A stretch of DNA of 64,000 nucleotides from Onthophagus taurus (Eukaryota > Arthropoda > Insecta > Coleoptera > Scarabaeidae). Below the pieces are notes generated by a model. It made no database searches, was not told the DNA's origin, and was given only the letters and a program-made list of their open reading frames with translations. The DNA lies in contig NW_027248941.1 of NCBI RefSeq assembly GCF_036711975.1, positions 434,001 to 498,000 of the forward strand, given 5' to 3'. Both the position numbers and the translations under genes were made by a program. Shown here piece after piece: positions 26,197-64,000 of the stretch; the stretch's first letter is position 1, and every line of letters begins with the position of its first letter.

Positions 26197-29100
26197 TCAT
26201 TGATCATTTCCAAGGCAAACCCCTGAGCAATACAACTTATCATTTCTCAACAACAACTTGGCATTTAAAAGCGGTTTGGTGCAAACGTGACACCGGAAAC
26301 AGCCGTCATGGGCATGGAAATGCAATCCTTTCAAGGTGGCCCCCGGTTCGTCCGGTTTGATAACTTTAAAGCAAGCGGCGCATTTGGACGCCCTCACAGT
26401 TTCGTAACAACTCAAACAAATCGGTTGCGACTCCTCCATCACATAATTAGACCCCGCCAACGGCGTATCGCACTCGAAACAACAAAAATGTTTAACATGA
26501 AACGTTGCGTTCTCCGCCAAACAATACTCCTTAACAAAAATCAATTCGTCGCAAGCCATACAACGCGGAATCCCTTTAATTTTCGCGTAATCCCTCCCGC
26601 AATAAATTTGATCGGAATCTTTATCATAAAAATAAAGCAAATCGGCCAAATTTTGGTTACACCCGTAACACCGGAAACAATTTGAGTGAAACGAAGCGTT
26701 CGCTCGATCGATTTGAACCACAATCGAGTCATTTTCGAAGAGTTTCTTGCAATGATGACAAGATTGAGGGTTTTGATTTGGAATGAAATGATTTTTAGGT
26801 TCCTCTAGGTGATTGTTATCGTGGTGGATTTGGGCCGATTTGATTTTATTTTCGTATTCGATGTCTTTAATTCCCCCTACGGTTACGTGGTGGGGTTCTA
26901 AATTTTCTTCGGGAACGCTTGAGAATGCATTTTCTGGGATTAAATGTTTGTTTGGAGTTGGTGGGGGGAGTTTTAATTGTTGTTTTAGCCCGTTGGGGCC
27001 TACGATGTATGCGTCGTTGTTGGGGGGTAACATGTAGGTTTTTCCATCGGGGGATTCGACGAAGTTTTCGTCTTCTTTGTTGACGGGGAATTTAATTCCT
27101 TGGGTTGTTTCGACGTAGTTGTTACCGAGAGGGTCCGTGAAGAATCTTGGATCTTGTTTTGGACTGAAATAAAAATGTTATTTAATTTAGATAATAATAA
27201 TTTAAATTTTATTTAATATTTAAAGCGTCTTTATTCGTTTTTATTATATTTTTTCGACATAACCTCACTTTTACTGGGGATTTTTTTATTTTAACGTTTA
27301 GTAAATTTTTTTTAAGTCACCAACCTGCCGTTGCCATGGTGATATGTCAATAAGCGCAGACATCTTTAAAAAATTATTTGTGGAGTCAAGAAAATGTTTT
27401 ATAAACGTTTTATTAACGATTATATTAAACAATTTTAAACATTAAATGAAGCGAAAAGATCTGTTTTAAGGTAAGGTAAATAAATTAAAGTTTTTTTGAT
27501 AAATTACTTGAAATAAAAAATTTACCTTTTTCTCCACCTAACCTTACTTTTTCAAGTGACGTTTCATTTAACGATTTATTAAAAAAATTTTTATTTAACT
27601 CACCTGGGGGTAGAAATAAAACTAAAACTAGAAATTTTAGGGTTATGCCGTGCGTCTTGACGCAGTTTTAGTTTTATTTCTTATTACACCAAAAATTAAA
27701 CTTAGGAACTTTTTATTTGGACGTTTATTAAATTTTTTTAAGTCACCAACCTGCCGTTGCCATGGTGATTTGTCAATAAGCGCAGACATCTTAAAAAAAT
27801 TTGTTGTCAAGAGAAAGTTTTATTAACGATTATATTAAACAATTTTAAACATTAAATGAAGCGAAAAGATCCGTTTTAAGGTTTTAAAGATCCGTTTTTA
27901 AAGCAGAGTAAGTAGTTTTTTTTTAAACGTCAAAATACAATGTCATTTGAAAGTGAGGTTAGGTTGTGTTGTTAAAGTGAGGTCAACATCATTTTCTTTG
28001 ACGCACGGCATAACCTCAAAAATTTCTAGTTCTAACGCAAAATGATGTGAAATGCATCTTTTTTTTTGTTAAAACGTCAACATACAATGTTATTTGAAAG
28101 TGAGGTTGGGAATCTTCAACGTTCATTTTTGAGTACAAATACGCCGTTTTCTTGGGGGCGGCCGACGTTTTCGAAGTCACTTTTTCGTCTTGACACCAAA
28201 ATTAAAACTTAGGAACTTTTGATTTTGACGTTTATTAAATTTTTTTTACTTCACTAAAATAATTTTTTGTTTAAAAGTTTTCAACCCTGCCGTTACCATG
28301 GTGATTGGTCAATAAACACCGACATCTTTAAAAAAGTCACTTGTTGCATCAAGATAAAGTTTTTTATGATAATTATCACGATTATATTAATCAATTTTTG
28401 CATAAAATGAAGCTGAAAGGACCGTTTTTAAAGCAAAGTGAGTACAATCAATTTTTGTAACGAATTAGCTTTGTAAAAAATATGTTGTTCATTTTTCTCA
28501 ACCTAACCTAACTTATATTTAAATCATCCAGCGTTAGAAAAAGTGAGATTAAGTTGTGTTTCTCAGTTTTAGTGAAATATAAAACGTCACTTGTAAAACT
28601 GAGGTTATGTTGATACAAATATTTATTTCATAAAAAAAGACTAAAAATTCTAACCTTATTATTGAGTTATCATCCTTCTGGGATGTATTTAAGGGGTAAG
28701 TTTCCTTATTTTTATTAACCCCATAAATCCGCCCATCTGGTCCAATGGCTAAATTAGAATTTCTTGGATCTGGAATGTATTTTTTTCCATTTGAGTCCCT
28801 TAAAAAGCGTTCCCCGGATGGCGATGTAATAAATTTATCCTCTGGAAGAAAATATTTTTCATTCTTTGGTCCAATTACGTATTTATCATCATAAGGATCG
28901 GGATAAAAAACATTCCCATCAGCGTCCATTAAAAAGCGCTCTCCATTCGGACCACGCGCGAATCGAGCATCTTCCGAGTCTACAGGAAATAAATTTCCTT
29001 TTGGGTCAACTAAAAATCGATCACCTTGTTGGGAAATCGCGTAATTCTCGTCGATAGGATCGGGAATGAATTTTTTGCCGTTTTTTTCAATGAATCGATC

Positions 29101-32100
29101 CCCGTTTGCTGATGTTTGATATTTCGGGGTTGCTAATTTGTATTCTTTTCCTGATGATGGATCGAAAAGGTTTCCATTGGGTTGTTTAAATAATTTTTTG
29201 TCGTCATCGTTGAAAACAAATTTATTTCCGTTGTTATCTTCGAATAATCGCCCATCTTCGGGGGAGATTTTGTAAAAATTACCTTGAGGATCTAAAATGT
29301 GTTTATCACCATTAGGACCGATTAATATATTATCGTCTTTAGCTGAAGGATGATATTTTAACCCATACGGAGTCTCGAGGAATCTCTCCCCGTTTTTAAA
29401 CGTTTTAAATTTATCTTTGGGGATTTTGATGCGTTGTCCATCCGGGCCGATAACGTGATTTGGGTTGTTTGGATCCTCGTAGAATTTTTCTCCGTTGGGG
29501 GCTAACATAAATTTTTTTCCTGAGTCGTCTAAAAATCTTGCGTCTTTATCGCTTACTGGGAACACTTCTCCTTTGGGTGAAACAAAAAAGCGTTTTCCTT
29601 TGGGGTTAATTGCGTAGTTATCGTTGAATTGGCTCGGAACGCATCGCTCTTTGTTTTGATTTAGGACGTATCTTTCGCCGGTGGGGCCGGTTTTGTATCT
29701 ATCTTCAGGTAAGTAATATTTGACACCATCTTCACCTAATTGGAATTAAAAAAATTAATTAAAATTAGGTAATGAAATAAATGTTAACACTTTAATTTGA
29801 AAAATTTTTCATTTAAATCAAATGATGTATTTACTAGTTATATCCCATACTTTTGTTCCACCCTGTATAATACAGAGGACAAACCTTTTTTTCTTATTGT
29901 TTTATAATAAAAAAGTTACTGTCTCGGCAGCACGGTTGCCGAGGCTTGTTATGATATATCATTACATGCATATTATTCGCCAATTTTTAAACAGCCCCTG
30001 TATATACAGGGTCGCTGATATGTTTGGAAACGGTCGATAATCTTCTAAAGTAAGATAGCTAGCGAAAAATGTTAAGATACAAAAGTTTTAGTGTTTTTTA
30101 AAATTATTACAATAAAGACAAATTAAGTATACAGGTAAGTCAAAAAGTTATGACGTAACAAGGTTACGTTTTCTTTAATGGAACATCCTGTATATTATTC
30201 CATGTTTCAGTTCATCTCAAAATTATAAACAAAATTCATGTTGTAAGAAAAACTTTCAAAGGTAACTTGATAAGTTATGATCATAAACGACTAAAACATT
30301 TTTGTGTAATTTATGAGTGATTTTTAAAGTTCAATATCTCGAAAACGGTTAACTTTAGCTTTATGACGTGCTACATGAATTTTGTTTAGAATTTCGAGAT
30401 GAACCGAAATATGAAATAATATACAGGGTGTTCCATTAAAGAAAACGTAACTTTGTTTCGTCATAACTTTTTGACTGACCCTGTATAGTTAATTATTTTT
30501 TTGTAATAGATTGTAATAGATTCCATACATATCAGCAACCTGTATAATACGGAACACAAACTTTTTCTTATTGTTTTATAATATAACTATTGCCTCGGCC
30601 GCACGGCTGCCTCGGCTTGTAATAATACATCATTACTACAAAGAAACTTTTTCTTATTGCTTTATAAGGAAAAAAGCCACTGCCTCGGCTTGTAATGATG
30701 CATCATTACTGCAAAGAAACCGTTTCTTATTGCTTTATTAGAAAAAAGCCACTGCCTCGGCTTGTAATAATACATCATTACTGTAAAGCAATCTTTTCTC
30801 ATTGATTTATTAGAAAAAAAAGGCCACTGCCTCGGCAACACGACTACCTTGGCTTGTAATAATATATTAATAATGAACAAAAACCTATCCTTATTGCTTC
30901 CTAGCGAAAAAACGGCTGCCTCGGCCTCTAAATATGTATAAAGTATGGAAGACAAACCTTCTCCTATTGTTTTACATATGATAAAAAAGTTACTGCCTCA
31001 GCAGCACGGCTTCCTCGGCTTGTGAAAACATATTATTGCTGTAAAGAAACCTTTCTTTTATAATAAAAAAGCTACTGCCTCGGCTTGTCATAAAGCATTA
31101 TTACTACAAAGAAACCTTTTCTTATTGCTTTATAAGGAAAAAAGCCACTGCCTCAACAGCTTAGTTGCCTCGGATTGTAATGATATATCATTACTGCAAA
31201 GAAACTTTTTCTTATTGCTTTATCAGGAAAACACGCTACTGCCTCGGCTTGTAATAATACATCATTACTACAAAGAAACTTTTTCTTATTGGTTTATTAG
31301 GAAAAGAAGCCACTGCCTCGGCTTGTAATGATACATCATTACTGCACAGAAACCTCTTCTTATTGCTTTATAAAGAAAAAAGCCACTGCCTCGGTTTGTA
31401 ATAATATATTAATAATAAACAAAAACCTTTCCTTATTGCTTCATAGCGAAAACCCCACTGCCTCGGCCTCTTAATATGTATACAGGGTGATTCACATAAA
31501 AACCGAACTCGGCTATGAAATTGTACGTCAAACTTGACAAATAGGTTATAAAGTTAATTGATTTTTTAGTTTTGCTTACTGTTTATGTAAACGTCAAGGC
31601 TTTATAACCTATTTGTGAAGTTTGACGTACAATTTCACAGCCGAGTACTCTATAATAAAAAAGCTATTGCCTCGGCTTGTTTAAATAAAAAATTTATTTT
31701 TTTTCAACCTAACCTAACTTTCCCAAGTGAAATTTTGGGGTTTCCAATTGCGTTAGAATATTTGACATGATGAGAAGATAGTTACGAACGTATATTTTTA
31801 GACATTTTCCGACAGATTGCGCTACCTGCTATGCAGTTTTTTTTAAATGACATTTCTGACGTTTCGTTAAAAAAAATTTATTTAATTCATTTTGCATTAG
31901 AAATAAAACTAAAACTAAAAATTTTAGGGTAATAACCTCAAAATTTCTAGTTTTAGTTTTATTTCTTATTACATCGGCAGAAAAGTGAAAATTTTGTGTT
32001 TAAAAGTTTTCAACCCTGCCGTTACCATGGTGATTTGTCAATAAGGACCGACATCTTTAAAAAAATCACTTGTTGCATCAAGATAAAGTTTTGTAATAAT

Positions 32101-35100
32101 TATCGCGATTATATTAAACAATTTTCGCATTAAATGAAGTTGAAAGGTCCGTTTTTAAGACAGAGTAAGTACATTTAATTTTTGTAACGAATTAGTTGTT
32201 AAAAATTATGTTGTGCTTTTTTCTCAACCTAACCTAACTTTTTCAAGGACTATTTTAACTCGTCCAAAAACTAGAAATTTTAGTTTTTAAACGCCTTTGA
32301 CGCGCGAATAATCTAAAATGATTCAAGTTGCGATTAAATTAAATTTTAAATAAAATGAATCGACATATTTGAAATTGACATAAAAAAGTTAGGTTATGTC
32401 TGAAACTTCATTCCGAGATAAAAATCGTCTAAAATTGGTTTAAGCAAACGATTTGGATCACCAAAAATGTCTTTAATTGTTTATTTCGGTTGAATTGCAA
32501 ATTGAAATTTTTTTAAATGTCAAAATAACTATACTCTGTTTTTAAACCAGGAGGAGTATTTTAAATTTGTCACCAGATTGACCTTGCACGTGATTGGTTG
32601 AATGCGAGGAAGGTCCACACACAGGCAATTTTGAATTTTGAATTTGAAGGTTAGGTAATTGATAATTCGACAGTTTCGTGTCATTATTGTATATTTTGTG
32701 TTCTTAAACCCTTTTTTATTATATTTTGAAACAAATACACTCATAACTTCAATGTTAATTTGTATGTATAGTGTTGACGTTAACAAACGAAAATAAATAC
32801 AATAATAAGTAAATAAATAAATAATAATTATTAATTTAAATTTACCGCCAAAATATCTAGTGATATTTTCTGGTGATTTTTCCCAGTGTAAATCTGACTT
32901 TCGCGTTTACTCCTCCTCGTTTAAAAACAGCGTATAGTTCTAGTGCAAGTGTTAGTTCTAGTTTTAATTGTTATTCAGCGCTAAGTTATATATTTTTAAG
33001 TTTCGGGTTTAGCCCTGTGTCTTCAGACGCTGAATGTTAGGTAAGGTTAGTTTTGTTTACAAACATTAATTATACCATGAAGTATTCTTTGGCAATTAGT
33101 AATGGCAATTATAGCGTGAAGTTTTCTTTTGTAATGTCAATTATAGCGTGAAGGAATGTTAGGTAAGGTTAGTTTTGTTTACAAACATTAATTATACCAT
33201 GAAGTTTTCTTTGGCAATTAGTAATGGCAATTATAGCGTGAAGTTTTCTTTTGTAATGTCAATTATAGCGTGAAGGAATGTTAGGTAAGGTTAGTTTTGT
33301 TTACAAACATTAATTATACCATGAAGTATTCTTTGGCAATTTGTAATGGCAATTATAGCGTGAAGTAAATAAATAAATAATAATAATTAATTTAAATTTA
33401 CCGCCAAAATATCTAGTGATATTTTCTGGTGATTTTTCCTAGTGTAAATCTGACTTTCGCGTTTACTCCTCCTGGTTTAAAAACAGAGTATAGATGGGGG
33501 TGACAAAAAAGATTTAATTAACAAATTTGAAATCATTTAATAAAAATTATCTTTGTATTTAAAAAAATCGATGATTTTCGATTTAATTTAACGTTAATAT
33601 AACAAAAATTCAATAAAAAGTTATTGAACAATATTAATTAATGTTAATAAAATTCACTAGATGACGCTATCTCCTACGCGTCTTTTTCAAGTGACTTTGA
33701 CGTTTCATTAAAAAAAACATTTAACTCATTTTGAGTTAGAAATAAAACTAAAACTAGAAATTTGGAGGTTAATTTCTAGTTTTAGCTTTATTTCTTATTT
33801 CATCGGCAGAAAAGTATTAAATATAAATTTTGCGATAAAATAATTTTTCGTTTAAAAGTTTTCAACCCTGCCGTTACCATGGTGATTTATCAACAAGCAC
33901 GGACATCTTTAAAAAAAATCACTTGTTGCATTAAGATAAAGTTTTATAATAATAATCGTGATTATATTAATTAATTTTCGCATTAAATGAAGCTGAAAGG
34001 TCCATTTTTAAGGCAGAGTAAGTACATTCAATTTTTTGACGCATGACATAACCTCAAAAATTTCTAGTTTTACACCAAAAATGAAACTTACGAACTTACC
34101 TGTTACACAATTATCATCCAAACGATCTTTCTTATAAACCTTCCCATCAGGATCAAAAAATATCCTATCATTATTCTTATTAACCCCAAATCGTCCATCC
34201 TGTTTATCAACGGGATAAATTTCGCCATCAGGGCCGATTAAAAAGCGTTCATTACGCGGCCCCAAAGCGTATCGATCATCTTTCGGGTCCACTTTAAGCG
34301 GTTGATCGGTGTTTACGCCAGAAATGAGTTTTTCCCCATTGGGAGTTGTGTTGAAATAATTTTTTGGTACAAAATATTTCTTCTTATCCGGGCCAATAAC
34401 GTAACGATCATCAATATCGGAATAAAACACTTCTCCTTTAGGTCCCAAACAGATTTTATTCCCCATTGCATCCCTCCCGAAACGTTTATCCTTTGGATCG
34501 ACCGGAAATAATTCATTATTAGCCCCAATTAAGTACTTTTCACCATTCGGCCCAACAGCTCGTCTTTCTTGAATGGGGTCCGCGTAATATTTAATTCCAT
34601 TTTCGCCTTTTAAATAACGAACCCCTCCAGGTTCGCTTTCGAATAGATCCTCGCCGATGTAATGTCGATCGTTTAATTCGCCTATAACGTAATTTGGATC
34701 GTTTGGATCTTGGTGAAAAAGATTTCCGGTGGGGCCCATTAAAAATTTTGAATTATTTTTCGGGTCGATTAAGAATCGGCCGTCTTTGTTATCGATTTTG
34801 TATAAATTCCCATCGTTTCCAACTCGGTATCGCTCCCCTCGTGGTCCTAAACAGTAACGATCGTCGTTGGGATCCGCGAAAAATTTTTGGTTATCTCCAG
34901 ATCCTGTTAAAAAGCGTTCGCCGTAATCGGATGTGTCATATCTGTCGTCGGGGAAAACGAATTTTTCACCATTTGGGCCGATTAAAACGTTTCTATCGTT
35001 GGGATCTTGAACGTAACGTTCGTTTTTGGGGCCCAACAAAAATTTTGTGCCATCTTCAACTGCTAAACGACCGTCGTTGATGTCAATGGGGTATCGTTTT

Positions 35101-38100
35101 CCTTGGGTGTCAACGATGAAACGTTTTCCTTCGCAGTTTCTTACGTATCGGTCATTATCTGGTTCGGCAAAAAAAATTTCCTAAAAAAAAAATGGAAATT
35201 ATACTCTATTTTTTAATTCGTTTTCAAAAAGAAGGGAAATTACGGCGTATAAATGATTAAGTTGGTAATGAACTGTCAAAATTGACGTTTAAAATACAAA
35301 GATGACATATAAATAATGAAGTTGGCAACTAAACGTCAAAAATAGACGTTTAAAATACAAAAATGACGTATAAATAATGAAGTTGGCAACTAAATGTCAA
35401 AATTAGTTTGTTATTTCAAAAAATAATTTGTTAATATTAAATGTTGAGTAGATTTTTTAAAATTAAATGTTAAAAGGCGAAAGCAATTTTCGAAAAATTT
35501 TGATTTTTATTATTTTTGGGGGTTCAGTTAGGGGAATTTTTTGGGTTGGTATTAATTTTTTTAATTGACACAATTTACTTGTCGCTATAAACTAATTGTG
35601 CATTTTAATGAAATTTAAATTAATCTAAATCGTTTAAAAAGACGATTATTATGAAATTATTGATTTGAAACATTCAAATTAATAAATTAATTATAATTCG
35701 GTTAATAAACAAGAAAAGTGAGGTTAAGTCGTTTGTTGACTTTTAATTGACGTTTCAACATTAATTAATTTATTACAAGAAAATTAATTAATAAATTAAA
35801 CAAGGTAAGGATAGTAGATAGTTGAGTTAGATATTAAGATAGTTTATATCAATCTTTCTAGTCTAACCTAAGTTTTTATTTTGACATTTCATTAAAAAAA
35901 ACAACATAACCTAAGATTTTCAAATGACATTTAAGTGGTGTTACCATGGTACTTCATCACGTACACAATAAAATTGTGTAAATAAAGCGATTCCTTTTAG
36001 TTTTTAATTAATTGTTAATAATAATAAGCCGAAATTAATGTATTAAGCAATTTTCGAAAAATTTTGATTTTTATTATTTTTGGGGGTTCAGTTGGGGGAA
36101 TTTTTTGGGTTGGTATTAATTTTTTTAATTGACACAATTTACTTGTCGCTATAAACTAATTGTGCGTTTTAATGAAATTTAAATTAATCTAAATCGTTTA
36201 AAAAGACGATTATTATTAAATTATTGATTTGAAACATTCAAATTAATAAATTAATTATAATTCGGTTAAAAAACAAGAAAAGTGAGGTTATGTCGTTTGT
36301 TGACTTTTAATTGACGTTTCAACATTAATTTATTACAAGAAAATTAATTAATAAATTAAACAAGGTAAGGATAGTAGATAGTTGAGTTAGATATTAAGAT
36401 AGTTTATATCAATCTTTCTAGTCTAACCTAAGTTTTTATTTTGATATTTCATTAAAAAAAAATCAATATAACCTATGATTTTCAAATGACATTTAAGTGG
36501 TGTTACCATGGTACTTCATCACATACACAATAAAATTGTGTAAATAAAGCGATTCCTTTTAGTTTTTAATTAATTGTTAATAATAATAAGCCGAAATTAA
36601 TGTATTAAGTAATTTTCGAAAAACTTTGATTTTTATTATTTTTGGGGGTTCAGTTAGGGGAATTTTTTGGGTTGGTATTAATTTTTTTGATTGACACAAT
36701 TTACTTGTCGCTATAAACTAATTGTGCATTTTAATGAAATTAAAATTAATCTAAATCGTTTAAAAAGACGATTATTATTAAATTATTGATTTGAAACATT
36801 CAAATTAATAAATTAATTATAATTCGGTTAAAAAACAAGAAAAGTGAGGTTATGTCGTTTGTTGACTTTTACTTGACGTTTCAAAATTAATTTATTACAA
36901 GAAAATTAATTAATAAATTAAACAAGGTAAGCATAGAGTTTATATCAATCTTTTTAGTCTAATCTAAGTTTTATTTTGACGTTACATTAAAAAAAAATCA
37001 ACATAACCTAAGATTTCAAATGACATTTAAGTGGTGTTACCATGGCAACAGCAATTTACCACATTAAATCTGTCAACTTCAAAATAAATTAATTAAAATC
37101 TCACCTTATTATTTTTATCTTCTTGATATCTTTGCCCTTTTGGGTTAACCTCAAACTTTTCATTAGGCACAAAACATTTTTCCCCATCCTTTAAAACAAA
37201 TCGATTATCTTCGGGGTCTTCATAATACTTTTCTCCATTAGCCCCAATTAATAAACGTTCTCCTTTGGGGCCGATCGCGTATCTTCCATCTTTAGAATCG
37301 ACGTAAAAGCGTTCCCCGCTTGGGGATTGCACCAAAAGTTCTCCATTTGGGCCGGAATAATATATACTGTTGGTACAAACAGGAAGTCGTTCGCCGTTTG
37401 GAGCGATGACGCAGATTTGTTCGCGAAATCCCAAAGGTAAACGATTAACATCTTCGATCGTGCGATTATTTGGATGGAGAATTGTGGCGAAAACGGGTTG
37501 GGCACCCCCGACCGGGTAACTATTTTCTAATCGGGCGTTTGGAGTAAAAGGGATTTTTACGTAAGGCGTTGGTGAGGCGAATTTTTCGTTTACACAACTC
37601 GAAATGAAGGGAATTTTATCTTGTATTTTAGGATAAACTGGATAAACTTTGTCTTCTTCTCGATTGGTGACTCGATTTGGTGTAAAAACTGGGAGGTTTT
37701 TGACATTTTCTGGGTAATCTTCATCAATATTTAATCGATTAAAATCGTTATTTAAATTTCTTAATGGTTTTACATTCAAAATCGTTGATTTAACATCTTC
37801 TGTTGTTGAATAATTTGGATGGAACTTATCAGAAACTAAGTTTCTGTTAACAGGGGTTTTATCAAAATTTAAATGAACAATTTGCCCAACTCCAACAATA
37901 TTCTTCTTTATATTAGCCACATAATCATTCATTAATTTAACTTCATCCTCTGTTAATGAATCACATAAACTTGGATCAATATCGTGTAAAGGAATTTGCT
38001 TTTGAAGGAGTTGTTTTCGTTCTTGAGCAGCTGCTGAACCCTTTACAGGGAGTAATTCATCAGGGAGGGTTTTTAAATACTTTTCTATGGCTTCTTTTTG

Positions 38101-38542
38101 CCCTTTTGGTGTCCATTCTAACTCAATTTCTTCTTTTTTACCTGGTAACACTACAAAACATCACATTAAAACATTTTTTTAGTATTAAATAATCATTTTT
38201 TACCAATTTTGTTGCACTTATTTGGTTTACTTCCAAGTAATTGGAACTGAGCATATCCATAAATATCATCATCTTGGACATCATGGCTTTCTTTTCCACA
38301 TTTGCAATTTTTGCAAATTTTTCGCCAAAAATGTAAATCTAACCCTAAAAAATAAAAAACGCTTTATTTATAACGATTGTTTAAGTTAATTTTTGCTTTT
38401 TACCTGGGCAATCGTTCTTGCAATTCAAACACGGGGATCCCGCTCCAGTTTCGTGCCCCAATTTCGCTTTTAATCGGCGTTCGCGCTTCGCTTCCAGCTC
38501 TCTTAACCAATTCGGGGCGTCGGGGGATGGTTCTTCGGTCAT
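26197..38542 (-). CDS. Tes: Giant Testin: PET and three LIM domains split by a repeat array
   Basis: Exons 38404-38542, 38204-38344, 37105-38150, 34100-35180, 28655-29735 and 26197-27163 join in frame to 1,484 residues; human Testin has 421. Testin binds zyxin, Mena and actin at focal adhesions. N-terminus: [18 protein letters not shown] and [15 protein letters not shown] domain: [49 protein letters not shown] (to about residue 190). C-terminus: three LIM domains from Cys1298, with [20 protein letters not shown] and [20 protein letters not shown], which identify Testin rather than Prickle. Between them, residues about 342-1,225 are acidic, Gly/Asp/Pro-rich units of the type GPNGEKY..DP.D.RY.IGP. 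They form a higher-order repeat of about 96-98 residues, marked by the K-Y-F-x-P-x-D-x-F-x-T motif near 418, 515, 614, 710, 808, 904, 1000, 1096 and 1204. The array spans four exons. Frame is open throughout, so it looks functional. Confidence 0.9.
27220..28545 (+). repeat. Family A copies in the last Testin intron
   Basis: Three partial copies lie in tandem. The CCATGGTGAT module occurs near 27,337, 27,758 and 28,297. Between the first two is a hairpin. After the third comes an exon-like stretch ATGAAGCTGAAAGGACCG with donor GTGAGT (28,408-28,444). All run in the same direction, antisense to Testin. Confidence 0.7.
29870..31470 (+). repeat. Minisatellite of about 73 bp in Testin intron 4
   Basis: The unit contains GCCACTGCCTCGGCTTGTAA, ATACATCATTACTACAAAG and AACCTTTTCTTATTGCTTTA. 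Roughly 15 copies of variable length run from about 30,540 to 31,470, with an outlying copy at 29,870-29,970. Some units carry an extra 'CAGCACGGCTGCC' segment. The array is interrupted by a MITE at 30,130-30,485. Confidence 0.75.
30130..30485. mobile_element. Mariner-like MITE with TA target duplication
   Basis: The ends read TACAGGTAAGTCAAAAAGTT and, inverted, TACAGGGTCAGTCAAAAAGT. The arms match for about 115 bp, through GTTACGTTTTCTTTAATGGA and AAACAAAATTCATGT. TA flanks both ends (30,128-30,129 and 30,486-30,487), as in Tc1/mariner insertions. The element is 356 bp and has no transposase. Confidence 0.75.
31480..31650. mobile_element. Small hairpin element, MITE-like
   Basis: CTCGGCTATGAAATTGTACG near 31,508 is inverted as CGTACAATTTCACAGCCGAG near 31,626, with the arms continuing through the 'AAATAGGTTATAAAG' region. 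The arms are about 50 bp with a loop of about 45 bp. No clear target duplication is visible. Confidence 0.6.
31690..32310 (+). repeat. Family A copy in Testin intron 4
   Basis: It starts in 'ACATGATGAGAAGATAGTTAC', has an altered core CAGATTGCGCTACCTGC, a hairpin at about 31,900-31,970, GCCGTTACCATGGTGATTTG (about 32,018) and the exon-like ATGAAGTTGAAAGGTCCG with donor GTAAGT (32,134-32,170). Confidence 0.7.
32529..33493. mobile_element. DNA transposon remnant with perfect 30-bp inverted termini
   Basis: Left end CTATACTCTGTTTTTAAACC is matched without error over 30 bp by the inverted right end. The right-terminal 130-150 bp also occurs internally (about 32,790-32,939), so the element has a duplicated right end flanking a minisatellite. 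No transposase frame is present. No target-site duplication is obvious. Confidence 0.7.
33032..33363 (+). repeat. Three-copy 122-bp tandem repeat inside the transposon
   Basis: Units start at 33,032, 33,154 and 33,276 with GAATGTTAGGTAAGGTTAGT. Each contains ATTATACCATGAAGT and two 'CAATTATAGCGTGAAG' segments. Units are nearly identical, which implies recent amplification. Confidence 0.85.
35251..35402 (+). repeat. Short tandem repeat in Testin intron 3
   Basis: Two and a half units of about 62 bp contain TAAATAATGAAGTTGGCAAC and GACGTTTAAAATACAAA. It lies between exon 4 and the longer tandem repeat that follows. Confidence 0.7.
35481..37046 (+). repeat. Three tandem copies of a 563-bp unit in Testin intron 3
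   Basis: Units start at 35,481, 36,045 and 36,607 (spacing 564 and 562 bp) with AAGCAATTTTCGAAAAA; the third is cut short near 37,046. Each contains TTTTTGGGGGTTCAGTT, GTCGCTATAAACTAATTGTG and GTGGTGTTACCATGG. Copies are very similar. The unit is unlike family A apart from the CCATGG tail. Confidence 0.85.
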
Positions 38543-62334: not shown

Positions 62335-62439
62335 GTAAGTAATTTCAAATTTTTAATCGAAACATAACCTAACTTTTGATAATTTGTCAAAAAATAATTT
62401 TAATTTAAATCAAATTAATTAATTTTTTTAAATTTTTGT

Positions 62440-64000
62440 GTTTTATTAGATTAAAAACGATTCGATTTATTTAATTAATTAACTTATTTTAAATTAAAAC
62501 TTACAAAAAAAATCGTTTTTAAATAACTTTTTAGCTCCATCTATTGGTTGTATTAATAAACGTCATTTAATGACGTTTAAATTTGAGATTAATTTTATTT
62601 TGTGCTTTAATTTAGCAATTTCGAATCAATTTTTTTAAACTTTTTCTTTAATTGATACAAAACGATTCGATTTATTTATTAATTAATTAATTTTAAATTA
62701 TGATAAAAGAAAAAATCGTTTTTGAATCACTATTTAGCTCCATCTATTGGTTGTCTTAATAACTGTCAGTTAATGACGTTTAATATTGGGGAGAATTTTA
62801 TTTTGTGTTTTAATTTAGCAATTTAAAACTTAATTTTTTTAAATTGTTGTTTTATTTGGTACAAAACGATTCGATTTATTTATTAATTAATTAATTTTAA
62901 ATTATGATAAAAAAAAAAATCGTTTTTGAATCATTATTTAGCTCCATCTATTGGTCGTATTAATAACTGTCAGTTAATGACGTTTAAAATTGGGGTTAAT
63001 TTCATTTTGTGTTTTAATTTAGCAATTTAAAAATTAATTTTTTTAAATTGTTGTTTTATTTGGTACAAAACGATTCGATTTATTTCATTAATTAATTCAT
63101 TTTAAATTAAAAATTTTAAAAGAACGTTTTTAAACAACTTTTTAGCTCCATCTATTGGTTGTATTAATAAACGTCAGTTAATGACGTTTGAATTTGTGGT
63201 TAATTTTATTTTGTGTTTTAATTTAGCAACCTCAAATCAATTTTTTTAAATTTTTGATTTATTAGATACAAAACGATTCGATTTATTTCATTAATTAATT
63301 CATTTTAAAGTAAAATTTAAAAATATCGTTTTTAAATAACTTTAGCTCCATCTATTGGTTGTATTAATAAACGTCAGTTAATGACGTTTAAATTTGAGGT
63401 TAATTTTATTTTATGTTTTAATTTGGCAATTTCAAATTAATTTTTTTTTTAATCTTGGTTTTATTAGAGTCAAAATGATTCGATTTATTTAATTAATTAA
63501 TTTATTTTAAGTAAATGTTAAAAAAATCGAAATTAAATAACTTTTTAACTCCATCTATTGGTTGTATTAATAAACGGCACTTAATGATGCTTAAATTTGA
63601 CATTAATTTCATTTTGTGTTTCAATTTAGCAATTTCGTATGATTTTTTTTTTAATTTTTGTGTTAATTGACACAAAATACTCGATTTATTTAATTAATTA
63701 ATTTATTTTAAATTAAAATTTTAAAAAATCGTTTTTAAATAACTTGTTAACTCCATCTATTGGTTGTATTAATAACTGTCAGTTAATGACGTTTAAAATT
63801 GGGGTTAATTTCATTTTATGTTTTAATTCAGCAATTTCAAATTAATTTTTTTTAAATTTCGGTTTTATTTCGTACAAAATGTTTCGATTTATATAATTAA
63901 TTAATTTGTATAAAATTAAAATTTAAAAAAAAACTCTTAACTCCATCTATTGGTTGTATTAATAACTGTAATTGGGGTTAATTTTATTTTGTGTTTTAAT
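62440..64000 (+). repeat. 203-bp satellite array, running off the window
   Basis: Eight units are marked by CTCCATCTATTGG at 62,535, 62,738, 62,942, 63,146, 63,346, 63,549, 63,751 and 63,941 (spacing 190-204 bp). Each unit also has ACAAAACGATTCGATTTATT, TTAATTAATTAATTT, 'GTCAGTTAATGACGTT' and 'TGTGTTTTAATTTAGCAATT'. On the minus strand the marker reads CCAATAGATGGAGC, 12 of 14 to the CTCF core. The array begins about 100 bp after exon 8 of the long gene. Confidence 0.9.

Follow-up and report, generated by a model that had tools for sequence, protein, structure and literature searches.

The Testin (TES) proteins of human and other animals are cell-adhesion proteins that carry a PET domain followed by three LIM domains. 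One study reports that residues 52-233 of human Testin, which include the PET domain, bind LIM1-2, that both PET flanks are required for this and that antiparallel dimers form as well (PMC5436826); in another, the PET domain holds the LIM domains off strained actin filaments (PMC12157626). A possibly related fold is that of the TCP10 (G-box, here TCP) domain of CPAP/SAS-4, which in the 2013 CPAP paper is a single-layer meander of ~20 strands with type I turns, often PDG, that stands alone, a free-standing beta-meander termed unique among natural proteins (PMC3776556); a length of ~9.2 nm is given in a further paper (PMC5366329). Here we describe the Testin gene of the dung beetle Onthophagus taurus, which lies in a stretch of 64,000 nucleotides (the window; NCBI RefSeq assembly GCF_036711975.1, contig NW_027248941.1, positions 434,001 to 498,000 of the forward strand; all coordinates below are window positions). 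Its product has the same PET-then-three-LIM order, whereas the gap between PET and LIM1, ~34 residues in human Testin (200-233, inferred from construct boundaries), measures ~1,100 residues and holds a repeat array of 884 residues (residues 343-1226). Judging by the structure models and by analogy with human Testin, we give a probability of about 0.5 to the reading that this linker is a folded rod of beta-hairpin repeats, acting as a long tether that would weaken PET-LIM self-closure.

To define the repeat unit, we calculated the autocorrelation of the linker against 200 shuffles, which gave peaks at lag 9 (z 13.4), lag 18 (z 13.1), lag 97 (z 10.9) and lag 27 (z 10.0). A preliminary description of this locus, made from the letters alone, had proposed an array of about 880 residues built of ~96-residue units with nine regularly spaced anchors, between PET and LIM domains. 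The array and its position hold, in frame and within the same gene, and the long unit stands as a superunit of 96-99 residues; the elementary unit is nine residues, approximately [DG]-P-[NKD]-[GDN]-E-[RK]-[FY]-[LV]-[IV]. Iterative segmentation, fitted to the O. taurus protein itself, placed 87 nonapeptides across residues 343-1226 (2/87 placements score below 0), with P at position 2 in 48, G at position 4 in 46, R/K at position 6 in 57 (R, K or N in 68/87) and F/Y at position 7 in 64. A 7-residue insert (e.g. PEDRYKT) comes back at intervals of 96-99 residues; one superunit of ~97 residues thus consists of ten nonapeptides and one insert. A superunit profile, built from rows of the same protein that it was scored on, reached 976 bits and returned ten domain envelopes, against the nine anchors proposed earlier.

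The array starts at 37105..37404 (minus strand, as for all features of this gene; residues 343-442), as placed by segmentation, with a profile match of 93.4 bits that covers profile positions 17-96 only. Superunit segmentation then delimits residues 526-624 (34635..34931), 625-720 (34347..34634), 819-914 (29401..29688), 915-1010 (29113..29400) and 1011-1106 (28825..29112), and the array ends in its weakest part at residues 1163-1226 (26974..27163; segmentation, and a profile match of only 46.7 bits). Comparison of the seven complete superunits (residues 429-1106) gave 22-41% residue identity between pairs and pN<pS in 21/21 pairs, with pS near saturation; from these two results the array is old and its protein pattern has been maintained. 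Its composition (149 D+E vs 133 K+R, net -16, pI 5.3, no tryptophan) makes the earlier label of an acidic spacer apt in a weak sense only, the acidity being mild.

The gene model was assembled on the minus strand at 26197-38542, where, as had been proposed, six exons join in one frame to encode 1,484 residues; the frame measures 4,455 nt with its stop, and GT...AG bounds 5/5 introns. Exon 1 (38404..38542, residues 1-46) supplies the start codon and a Cys-rich N-terminus and was placed by its open reading frame, its GT donor and identity with the NCBI protein P0001; exon 2 (38204..38344, residues 47-93) is bounded by AG/GT in phase 1-1. Exon 3 (37105..38150, residues 94-442) encodes the PET domain (core at 37879..38136, residues 99-184; Pfam PF06297, E 5.8e-22 for the whole protein) and the first repeats. 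The array fills exon 4 (34100..35180, residues 443-802; four superunit profile matches of 99-126 bits) and exon 5 (28655..29735, residues 803-1162; three matches scoring 131, 110 and 135 bits, plus two partial matches at 53.5 and 4.8 bits), and none of the three exon boundaries within it coincides with a superunit boundary. Exons 4 and 5 are both exactly 1,081 nt long despite different superunit start positions. Exon 6 (26197..27163, residues 1163-1484 plus stop), defined by its open frame and splice boundaries, ends in the three LIM domains (26200..26760, from residue 1298), found as three stretches of Pfam PF00412, the best at residues 1298-1357 (E 2e-25). By these domains the gene is the Testin of O. 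taurus, in agreement with the preliminary description; among the named relatives, those that score best come from beetles and share its PET and LIM domains, and in a 50-row tree, drawn without Prickle and Etes outgroups, the protein falls inside the beetle Testins.

Structure models were computed with AlphaFold2 after exclusion of three alignments (A1, A3 and A4) in which sequence-sharing rows were pulled out of register. Three adjacent superunits (residues 819-1106, 288 residues) gave pLDDT 88.4 and pTM 0.63, and the single superunit 1011-1106 (96 residues) gave pLDDT 90.2 and pTM 0.77, both with strands and turns and no helix. The predicted fold is thus all-beta, with one strand per about nine residues. 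Fold searches with these models returned local likeness only among the matches listed: in one pair of searches, Foldseek TMq was at most 0.30 among the 50 matches listed and the VIA matches span 31-44 residues only. Within the array no Pfam family passed its threshold, Tachylectin coming nearest (E 0.0054, 17 of the 29.8 bits needed), which agrees with the earlier view that the motif could not be assigned to a known domain. PQQ-type beta-propellers (closed rings of four-stranded blades; the designed Cake/Scone proteins, 3hxj) share a DGxxY strand rhythm with the array, and the superunit profile matched Cake9 at E 4.4e-12; this value is summed from eight weak stretches of 6-9 bits that lie 40 residues apart, not 97, and the TMq ceiling applies here as well. 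The CPAP TCP domain resembles the array in its P-[DN]-G-rich turns and all-beta character and ranks first among the VIA matches to the 288-residue model, at an rmsd of 9.6 over 75 residues, which is weak. As the array in this Testin matches nothing in the searches made, it has, in our view, a fair chance of being a new repeat fold.

To place this linker among its relatives, we collected 49 proteins by a search blind to those below 816 residues; they measure 816-1,711 residues, and a precomputed Pfam list gives both PET and LIM domains for every one. Within that range 46/49 are 816-1,116 residues long; the threefold expansion that had been claimed is one relative to human Testin. An extended set comprised 130 different Testin-like proteins, those named being from insects (for P0050 and P0118 the Pfam list gives only one of the two domains). 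Linkers were surveyed in 129/130 (P0118 left out), with the linker start fixed at residue 200 in 77/129, which makes the lengths approximate: they range over 64-1,333 residues (median 398). The superunit profile found 0 matches in the 129 other Testin-like proteins (best E 0.47), and an array-only search among proteins of ~816-2,597 residues sharing exact words returned nothing but the gene itself among the best 7,990 candidates scored.

A strong linker period (z>8) is present in 8/129 proteins, at 9, 23, 38, 43, 44, 45, 104 and 104 residues, two of these being isoforms of one wasp. Linkers rich in turn-plus-strand motifs were found in 4/129, namely O. taurus, Nicrophorus P0018, Anthonomus P0012 and P0019, by two patterns written after seeing the sequences detected, each protein being caught by one pattern and not both. 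Six further linkers, four of them from named mosquitoes, hold 3-4 motif copies (z 5-9), and that of Ceutorhynchus holds 4 (z 5.1); we took these as too few for an array. P0019 stands beside O. taurus in trees (support 99/91 with 50 rows and 84/89 with 20 rows), and its branch is long (1.14). This protein, predicted from a contig of 5,882 nt, combines PET, a linker of 1,333 residues and LIM domains and, because such a contig leaves scant room for introns, we infer that its source is a transcript. A 23-residue unit, approximately EPILDxNGxPILDxNGxPLYKEx, can be placed 52 times in its linker, with scores above 20 bits in 40 cases. The O. taurus array and that of P0019 do not match (hhalign probability 0.8%), and the superunit differs from the 23-residue unit. 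The arrays of P0019, P0018 and P0012 share with that of O. taurus their site in Testin, short turn-plus-strand units and D/P/G turns, whereas their main periods are 23, 8 and 43 and the superunit profile of O. taurus picks up none of them. The simplest reading is one of separate origins at a permissive site; a single ancestral array under very fast divergence may also account for them. The linker of P0012, from the boll weevil Anthonomus grandis, further matches Pfam DUF4585 (PF15232, E 1.9e-19; residues ~668-699 and two further stretches) with DPxTGKY hairpin-like units.

If the models are right, each nonapeptide would form one beta-turn ([DG]-P-[ND]-G) and one strand (E-[RK]-[FY]-[LV]-[IV]), ten of them with the 7-residue irregularity would build a superunit of 97 residues, and eight to ten of these, not all complete, would follow in tandem, their successive strands pairing as antiparallel hairpins in a beta-meander. 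At the rise of the CPAP TCP sheet, 90-95 strands would give a rod of ~41-44 nm (at most ~45 nm) for an open sheet and a shorter one for a curled sheet. With its ends tens of nanometres apart, closure in cis would be weakened and open, trans-dimeric or head-to-tail dimeric forms favoured, and the protein could serve as a long-reach scaffold at actin-rich adhesion sites, where hairpins could yield under load; a tension-bearing spacer, as proposed earlier, is possible. A bolder form of this reading is tentative: ~90 hairpin strands would constitute a new beta-repeat fold, a natural beta-meander of ~45 nm that turns a LIM protein from a self-locking clasp into a long tether, and several beetle lineages would have independently placed unrelated turn-plus-strand arrays at the same site.

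The chief rival to a folded tether is that the linker of insect Testin is simply a permissive region filled by repeat slippage, in which the array may or may not fold and its identity hardly matters. This near-neutral filling, which we hold to be unlikely, draws on the wide range of linker lengths, on periods that are strong yet different in 8/129 proteins and on the mismatch between the arrays of the tree neighbours O. taurus and P0019; it accords poorly with superunits that are old by their 22-41% identity and yet keep pN<pS in every pair, with 720 codons of exons 4-5 that stay open (chance ~2e-22 for independent bases at the exons' own composition) and with confident AlphaFold2 models. Less probable still is a multivalent binding sheet, whose regular F/Y at position 7 (64/87) would bind proline-rich partners much as the CPAP TCP sheet holds STIL: the CPAP match is weak in structure, CPAP is not among the 22 Protein Data Bank sequence matches of the superunit profile, and Tcp10_C is absent from Pfam scans of the exon translations (E<=1), of eight superunit rows (E<=10) and of the whole protein (E<=1). 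The earlier suggestion that the linker binds calcium, considered here in the form of RTX beta-rolls and EF-hands, fares worst of all and is very improbable. RTX nonapeptide beta-rolls have a nine-residue period and many D/N/G residues, and the array shares both features. A pattern search of its 884 residues found 0 GGxGxD, 0 relaxed RTX motifs, 0 EF-hand-like loops (D-x-[DNS]-x-[DNSG]) and 0 DxDxDG, a zero that means absence rather than depletion given that shuffled arrays yield only 0.1-0.2 motifs; EF-hand is not among the six Pfam families listed for the whole protein, and position 6, which is R, K or N for most nonapeptides, also argues against calcium binding.

A further rival, which we regard as quite improbable, is a gene model that wrongly fuses two or three genes, or a gene whose transcripts mostly omit the array. 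Introns of 1.9, 4.4 and 1.5 kb surround the array exons, and the exon-5 donor is GTTAGA, an unusual splice donor. Loss of exon 4, of exon 5 or of both shifts the frame (first stop at residue 467, 857 or 456, respectively) and loses the LIM domains; simple skipping is therefore unable to yield a short Testin with LIM domains, and a splice from exon 3 straight to exon 6, named earlier as one alternative, is unlikely. Joint loss of exons 3 and 4 keeps the frame and removes nearly all of PET. The O. taurus protein in NCBI/UniRef is identical over 1,484/1,484 residues, so a separate annotation made the same exon joins, although this is agreement between gene models and the NCBI model may be a prediction too; P0019, with PET, array and LIM domains in a single protein, argues in the same direction.

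The human Testin switch needs PET-LIM contact, and a natural spacer of ~900 residues probes the separation at which the clasp fails. Protein design could draw on the array as a compact supply of turn-plus-strand units, and it bears on whether free-standing beta-meanders are commoner than the 2013 CPAP paper held (PMC3776556). That several beetles carry different arrays at one position in Testin suggests that new repeat proteins have been tried out in this linker more than once.

The introns of the gene carry repeats of other kinds. Intron 3 holds three 300-nt copies at a spacing of ~563 nt (35330-36755), one pair being 97% alike and the remaining copy 65%, and intron 4 holds a 72-74-bp tandem array (30607-31467) and, at 33032-33366, 2.7 tandem copies of a 122-bp unit, with 98% matches. 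A dispersed element with CTGCCGTTRCCATGGTGAT, probably a small mobile element, occurs in 16 copies in the window (<=3 mismatches; 0 expected), of which five lie inside introns 4 and 5 (27325, 27751, 28287, 32016 and 33868), with 11 others. A 204-bp tandem satellite of ~7.5 copies occupies 62417-63931. Between 1818 and 55101 the gene neighbourhood looks ordinary: a family scan of 10 of the 28 longer open frames identified two MFS transporters, DUF383, an alpha/beta hydrolase, a Ras-family GTPase, ribosomal protein L6e, a kinase, a septin, a Rab-GAP TBC protein and a CDP-alcohol phosphatidyltransferase.
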